Assembly (NCBI GenBank): GCA_022059125.1 | Contig: JAEUWY010000020.1 | Span: 1,488,001-1,552,000 of the forward strand | Length of the DNA: 64,000 nucleotides | Origin: Corynespora cassiicola | Lineage: Eukaryota; Ascomycota; Dothideomycetes; Pleosporales; Corynesporascaceae | Direction: 5' to 3' | Position numbers and translations under genes: made by a program | Notes under the pieces: generated by a model | What the model saw: the letters and a program-made list of their open reading frames with translations, nothing else | Database searches by the model: none | What the model was told of the DNA's origin: nothing | In this document: positions 5,937 through 6,211 of the stretch, piece by piece | How the letters are laid out: the number at the start of each line of letters is the position of its first letter | Position numbering within the stretch: the first letter of the stretch is position 1

Positions 5937-6027
5937 GGTCGATTAGCTCAGTTGGTTAGAGCGTGGTGCTAATAGCTTCACCAGCTATGACACGCCAAGG
6001 CCATGGGTTCAAGCCCCATATTGACCT
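5937..6027 (+). tRNA. tRNA-Ile(AAU), intact, with 17-nt anticodon intron
   Basis: A full cloverleaf can be drawn. The acceptor stem is GGTCGAT (5937-5943) with ATTGACC (6020-6026). The D-arm/A box TAGCTCAGTTGG follows. The anticodon stem TGGTG/CGCCA holds loop CTAATA..A with anticodon AAT at 5971-5973. The T arm is ATGGG-TTCAAGC-CCCAT (6003-6019). A 17-nt intron (5975-5991) sits at the canonical position after base 37. Removing it leaves 74 nt including base 73. The discriminator is T (6027), whereas tRNA-Ile normally has A73. There is no T run before the next tRNA gene, so the two may share one transcript. Confidence 0.95.
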
Positions 6028-6057: not shown

Positions 6058-6199
6058 GGTCGATTAGCTCAGTTGGTTAGAGCGTGGTGCTAATAGTTCT
6101 ACTATGACACGCCAAGGTCGTGGGGTAAGCAACATCACCACCAACAACATCACAAACAGAATACTAACAATTTGAACAGTTCAAACCCCGCATTGACCT
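6058..6199 (+). tRNA. tRNA-Ile(AAU), second copy, T arm interrupted by a 55-nt insert
   Basis: This copy is near-identical to the tRNA at 5937 through the anticodon arm. The anticodon AAT is at 6092-6094 and a 13-nt canonical intron lies at 6096-6108. The variable loop is followed by T-stem 5' strand GTGGG (6120-6124). The T loop TTCAAAC and 3' strand CCCGC appear only at 6180-6191, after 55 extra nucleotides (6125-6179). The acceptor 3' strand ATTGACC is at 6192-6198. Excising both inserts gives 74 nt, the same length as copy one, with all stems paired. The insert splits the B box between bases 53 and 54, so the copy probably cannot recruit TFIIIC on its own. The discriminator is again T. 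It may be a functional gene with an ectopic intron or a disrupted copy. Confidence 0.85.
6125..6179 (+). other. Spliceosomal-intron-like 55-nt insert inside tRNA-Ile
   Basis: The insert begins GTAAGC, a normal fungal 5' splice site. It contains ATACTAACAA about 15 nt from its end, which includes the ideal branch-point motif TACTAAC, and it ends AACAG. Its boundaries coincide exactly with the T-stem/T-loop junction (base 53/54) and restore a perfect tRNA when removed. Its length falls within the range of the protein-gene introns in this window. The interior is A/C-rich with little T. It does not resemble the 13-17 nt endonuclease-type introns of the same tRNAs. Confidence 0.8.
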
Positions 6200-6204
6200 G
6201 ATTC

Positions 6205-6211
6205 TTTTTTT
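6205..6211 (+). terminator. Pol III T7 terminator after the tRNA-Ile pair
   Basis: A run of seven T residues begins six bases after the second tRNA, with a second run of six T at 6218-6223. No T run of four or more occurs between the two tRNA genes (6027-6057). This fits a single Pol III transcript covering both. Confidence 0.75.

Follow-up and report, generated by a model that had tools for sequence, protein, structure and literature searches.

A tRNA-Ile(AAU) gene at positions 6058–6199 of a 64,000-nucleotide stretch of Corynespora cassiicola genomic DNA (the whole stretch is referred to here as the window) is interrupted in its T arm by a 55-nucleotide (nt) insert. Judged from the sequence, this insert is very probably a working spliceosomal intron within a gene transcribed by RNA polymerase III (Pol III), and the gene is one of at least 15 of this kind in the genome. 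The introns of tRNA and those of messenger RNA (mRNA) are regarded as separate systems, and the spliceosome is not known to have a role in making tRNA. In the accessible part of the paper on tRNAscan-SE 2.0, eukaryotic tRNA genes are described as limited to one intron (PMC8450103), and a search of the literature, within whose reach few subscription papers fell, yielded no paper describing spliceosomal introns in genes for tRNA. If the reading proposed here is true, the spliceosome acts on tRNA precursors, its substrates include Pol III transcripts that are short and uncapped and whose last exon spans 15–20 nt, its activity could limit the decoding of particular codons, and essential tRNA genes go overlooked in such genomes.

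The interrupted tRNA-Ile(AAU) gene of the window

The window contains two tRNA-Ile(AAU) genes, both on the + strand and 30 bp apart. The upstream gene (5937–6027), whose T arm is intact and whose anticodon intron measures 17 nt, serves as a control from within the same genome. In the downstream gene, the 5' exon (6058–6124) comprises bases 1–53 of the tRNA and includes a 13-nt intron in the anticodon loop (6096–6108). It is followed by the T-arm insert (6125–6179), which begins with GTAAGC, ends with ACAG, and contains TACTAAC at 6162–6168, a putative branch site whose branch A (6167) is 12 nt upstream of the final base of the intron. The 3' exon (6180–6199; bases 54–73) carries TTCAA, the core of the B box, at its start. 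This arrangement of exons, anticodon intron, and insert, with its GTAAGC, TACTAAC, and CAG signals, had been proposed in an original prediction made from the letters of the sequence, and it is confirmed in each of these particulars. The same applies to the proposal that the joined gene matches the intact copy: removal of both introns leaves 74 nt, and the intact copy also amounts to 74 nt (91 nt minus its 17-nt anticodon intron). The joined gene has 5 of 5 pairs in the T stem, a T loop of 7 nt, and 7 of 7 pairs in the acceptor stem. It should be noted that exon and intron share a terminal G and that the 53/54 junction can be drawn one base leftward with the same product; the ambiguity in register that this creates is settled by the GT-AG rule. 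On the window, ARAGORN and Rfam (at the gathering threshold) call the intact copy, but both miss the interrupted one.

A run of seven T residues at 6205–6211, a putative Pol III terminator, follows the second gene, and the spacer between the two genes contains no T run longer than 3. Because of the lack of longer T runs in the spacer and the position of the T7 run, the tRNA-Ile pair is probably a single dicistronic Pol III unit.

Interrupted tRNA genes across the genome

The genome that was searched comprises 44,353,003 bases (44.35 Mb) in 23 contigs; two proteins encoded in the window match C. cassiicola Philippines with 100% and 99% identity. The first query, which spanned the window insert, returned two more Ile genes with a like insert; gene families were collected with exon-sequence queries, in which the presence of an intron was not a criterion. 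By these exon searches, 15 of the 18 genes for four isoacceptors, Ile(AAU), Lys(CUU), His(GUG), and Ser(GCU), are interrupted. Three of the five Ile(AAU) genes have an insert and two are intact; for Lys(CUU), six of seven are interrupted and one is intact, the search having also returned one Lys(UUU) gene. All three His(GUG) genes are interrupted, every exon match stopping after base 53, as are all three Ser(GCU) genes, in which every exon match stops at one common base of the T loop; five additional matches in the Ser(GCU) search are other tRNA-Ser genes. The insert is located between bases 53 and 54 in the Ile, Lys, and His genes and between bases 58 and 59 in the Ser genes, and it is 48–59 nt in length in all 15.

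Every insert begins with GTANG, ends with YAG (CAG in nine, TAG in six), and contains the branch motif CTRACA (CTAACA in 14, CTGACA in one), with the branch A 10–14 nt from the end of the insert. The inserts therefore have the donor and acceptor context of U2-type introns together with a CTRAY branch motif near the acceptor. The regular expressions used to describe the inserts, which demanded GTA.G and AG but not the branch site, recovered all 15 of the genes found through their exons. Three mRNA introns of the window that were placed by protein alignment have the donors GTATGT, GTGAGT, and GTAAGT, and all three have CTAAC 9–14 nt from the AG. When the 15 insert regions were subjected to dinucleotide shuffling, none of 300,000 shuffles had all of the signals in the exact slot; the set of donor, branch, and acceptor is by itself not rare, with eight matches on the + strand and none on the − strand of the 64-kb window. 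The presence of a spliceosomal-type intron between bases 53 and 54 of the window gene, which the original prediction put forward for this gene, is strongly supported, and 14 more genes have the same layout.

Searches based on the signals themselves gave 15 matches for an acceptor pattern, 11 of which belong to the interrupted set (35 matches in the reversed control), and 19 matches for a donor pattern, 12 of which belong to it (nine in the reversed control). The discarded matches, four with the acceptor pattern (L052, L054, L056, and L065) and seven with the donor pattern (L075, L080, L081, L086, L087, L088, and L093), were rechecked. None of these 11 discarded matches is a tRNA when unspliced, none of the seven donor-pattern matches is a tRNA when joined, and the four acceptor-pattern matches have no GTRNG donor within range for joining. 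A genome-wide Rfam search, in which 63 of 1,206 candidates were scored, recovered two of the 15 interrupted genes, with low scores. A 22-nt pattern from the His exon had no match in collections of virus and prokaryote sequences, a result that is uninformative on other fungi.

With respect to RNA folding, the introns of the three His genes (L076, L078, and L079), when folded alone, place the branch site within the loop of a hairpin in two cases and partly in its stem in the third; in the fold of the full His precursor, the branch-site hairpin of the isolated intron is not retained in the same form. A mock T stem, in which the 5' strand of the T stem pairs with the start of the intron, was considered for the 15 genes and found no support in comparisons with shuffled interiors (p = 0.16–0.94).

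Probable transcription and maturation of the interrupted genes

Removal of the insert restores a recognizable tRNA. Aragorn, at its default setting, accepted none of the 15 precursors and all 15 joined forms, and joins in which the donor was shifted by 3 nt failed in all 15; a lowered threshold let through most of the precursors and off-register joins, and the default run alone was used. After joining, 14 of the 15 genes have a T stem with 5 of 5 pairs and all have an acceptor stem with 7 of 7, giving a cloverleaf in which T arm and acceptor stem are both intact. Comparisons between copies point in the same direction. The exons are identical in every pair of dispersed copies of the His genes (51/51 and 20/20) and the Ser genes (66/66 and 15/15) and near-identical between the copies of the Ile and Lys genes. 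The intron interiors are more divergent than the exons and splice signals, with identities of 12–18 of 34–36 positions in Ser, 12–27 of 30–33 in Lys, 18–21 of 33–34 in Ile, and 27–34 of 37 in His. The columns containing the signals are more conserved than the remaining intron columns (Fisher p = 1e-4 for Ile, 6e-5 for Lys, 0.013 for His, and 2e-5 for Ser), in an alignment that was anchored on the signals and is to that extent biased in their favor.

The His and Ser(GCU) families carry particular weight. Under standard decoding, His and AGY codons each require their own tRNA, and both types of codon are present in the two window genes in which they were counted (CAY, 15 and 12; AGY, 12 and 21). 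Pattern searches for uninterrupted genes gave no match in the genome for His and nine for Ser(GCU) (10 in the reversed control); none of the nine was judged to be such a Ser(GCU) gene, one having been inspected in full by eye and eight judged by their matched letters only. No tRNA named by Aragorn among the retrieved Rfam matches is His(GTG) or Ser(GCT); since that family search scored 63 of 1,206 candidates, the evidence for a lack of intact copies comes from the targeted searches. Because the searches revealed no uninterrupted gene for His or Ser(GCU), it is likely, on this genomic evidence, that the T-arm introns are removed in vivo. It is also probable that there is no route to cytosolic tRNA-His and tRNA-Ser(GCU) other than through the spliceosome, in this species and perhaps in related Dothideomycetes, in which case the translation of two sets of codons would be directly dependent on the spliceosome. 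Separately, one match to the intact-Ser(GCU) pattern, L120 (C5:2941540–2941670), appears by eye to be a tRNA gene whose anticodon is CAU and whose anticodon intron is unusually long.

The signals for transcription are retained in the interrupted genes. The TTCRA core of the B box is whole in all 15: each insert abuts it, on the 5' or the 3' side, and none falls within it. A run of five or more T residues starts at most 23 nt from the 3' end of 14 of the 15 genes (all except the upstream one of a tandem Lys pair), so that the B-box core and terminator characteristic of Pol III genes are present. The consensus of box B is GGTTCRANNCC, and in the interrupted gene of the window the last AG of the intron followed by TTCAAACCC restores it except for the first G. 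The original prediction that the insert cuts this internal promoter fares less well: with TTCRA whole throughout the set, the box is not simply cut.

In the mechanism that we propose, box A, together with the TTCRA core that is preserved in box B, would direct initiation by Pol III, and the T run downstream would end transcription. Because the inserts adjoin TTCRA but never interrupt it, the core would still be usable, the AG of the intron substituting for GG in those genes with an insert at 53/54. The spliceosome would excise the T-arm intron, the RNA would fold, and its ends would be processed; in the Ile and Lys precursors, the tRNA splicing endonuclease would then take out the anticodon intron. 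Removal of the T-arm intron is expected to precede other processing, since the later tRNA-processing enzymes need a folded tRNA. The Ile and Lys precursors would thus be acted on by two unrelated splicing machines, and those of His and Ser(GCU) by the spliceosome alone.

Several observations weigh against this account. Joins in which the donor was shifted by 1 nt were accepted by Aragorn in all 15 genes and the exact register is not fixed in this way; it therefore depends on GT-AG and the pairs of the T arm. One joined gene, Ile_C6, has a mismatch in the T stem (4 of 5 pairs). The sixth base of the donor is the usual T, as in the three mRNA introns of the window, in only five of the 15 inserts and is A or C in the other 10. 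Divergent intact copies of the His or Ser(GCU) genes could have been missed, and because two of the five Ile genes and one of the seven Lys(CUU) genes are intact, the window Ile copy could itself be dispensable or a pseudogene.

Among the alternatives, the one that survives best, while still improbable, is that the genes are transcribed by RNA polymerase II (Pol II), alone or within longer RNAs, and spliced by the spliceosome, the tRNA being released later. Spliceosomal splicing is normally coupled to Pol II, and the original prediction had suggested a tRNA embedded in a Pol II transcript; however, the closely placed T runs in 14 of the 15 genes and the universally retained B-box core fit Pol III, and we keep the Pol II reading only as a minor rival. 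The motif CATCA, which precedes 10 of the 15 interrupted genes at a distance of 15–31 nt, also argues against it, having been seen by eye ahead of intact tRNA genes as well; this motif, which is missing ahead of the second gene in each tandem pair, is possibly a Pol III start-site element.

A second alternative, and a very improbable one, assigns excision of the T-arm inserts to the tRNA splicing endonuclease, acting as it does in archaea and red algae on a fold resembling the bulge-helix-bulge (BHB), a motif with splice sites in 3-nt bulges that flank a 4-bp helix; the GT, CTAAC, and AG would then be incidental. The Ile and Lys precursors have a normal anticodon intron, and the endonuclease therefore acts on them regardless. 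According to the accessible parts of two sources, tRNA introns in archaea, red algae, and nucleomorphs occur, like the present inserts, away from position 37/38, at 53/54 among other sites, and sometimes with more than one per gene (PMC4090602, PMC3978253); archaeal endonuclease introns at 53/54 itself are on record (PMC4090602). In these accounts, the noncanonical introns of archaea and red algae are attributed to the endonuclease and BHB-like motifs, and those of nucleomorphs are 3–24 nt long, with a mechanism that is not established (PMC4090602, PMC3978253). The fungal inserts, in contrast, have full spliceosomal signals, and a BHB was not found in them: in a simple test for the strict motif only, in both junction registers and two arrangements, none of the 15 genes had the 4-bp central helix, the best having three of four pairs. 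Cutting by the endonuclease also offers no explanation for the retention of branch and acceptor signals in all 15 genes across unrelated intron sequences. Equally doubtful is the idea that the interrupted genes are pseudogenes or decoys from which no tRNA is made. A review, in its accessible part, does state that insertions in the D or T arm of eukaryotic tRNA genes mostly concern a single gene out of many synonymous ones, presumed to be a pseudogene (PMC4090602), and intact genes also exist for Ile and Lys(CUU). Against this idea, every His and Ser(GCU) gene found is interrupted, the flanking exons are conserved on both sides, and the splice signals are retained.

Introns in other noncoding RNA genes and the age of the inserts

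A close parallel to spliceosomal introns in tRNA genes is found in the fungal genes for U3 small nucleolar RNA, whose introns are considered by their authors to be normal spliceosomal introns and share a consensus with the tRNA inserts (PMC5832005). As described in the available portion of that work, U3, like the interrupted tRNAs, is encoded by a short noncoding RNA gene with GT-AG introns, an RCTRAC branch motif, and a short distance from branch to acceptor, and intron-bearing and intronless paralogues are present in one genome, with clustered intron positions. The U3 introns differ in residing in genes that are not for tRNA, in being nearly all in the 5' stem-loop, and in having a mean length of 92 nt (PMC5832005). 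In the tRNA genes, the 3' exon is 15–20 nt and the intron is in the T arm, next to an internal promoter.

The U6 small nuclear RNA is transcribed by Pol III. Spliceosomal introns in fungal U6 genes, and the splicing of the U6 precursor in fission yeast, are cited in the accessible part of PMC5832005; they resemble the tRNA inserts as spliceosomal introns in a Pol III gene and differ in that the gene is for U6 rather than tRNA. The fission yeast case is thus a precedent for the spliceosomal splicing of a Pol III transcript. In the C. cassiicola genome itself, none of the nine U6 loci above the Rfam cut-off, all covering the full model, is interrupted (48 of 2,690 candidates scored). The ribosomal RNA (rRNA) genes of ascomycetes, including Pleosporales, also carry spliceosomal introns, according to work cited in the available text of PMC11889510; these are again in noncoding RNA genes, and in the same order as C. 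cassiicola, but the genes are those for rRNA, which are transcribed by RNA polymerase I, and not for tRNA. Spliceosomal introns are therefore already known in fungal U3, U6, and rRNA, and tRNA is the class of RNA in which they are unexpected.

A genome in which interrupted genes coexist with intact paralogues would offer a way to study how a gene with an internal promoter acquires introns. Recent gain of the insert, or its origin as an introner-like element, had been raised in the original prediction, together with a genome-wide search for copies of the 55-nt sequence. An introner-like element would be expected to have many near-identical copies at sites unrelated to one another, and a query with the whole insert matched the three Ile genes only. 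Because of this result and the divergence of the Ile intron interiors given above, the Ile insert is neither young nor a multiplying element. As regards genomic arrangement, three interrupted Lys(CUU) genes (L083, L082, and L084) are located within about 1 kb (C6:1322961–1323969); two of them are in tandem, with a spacer that lacks a run of five T residues, an arrangement resembling that of the Ile pair in the window.
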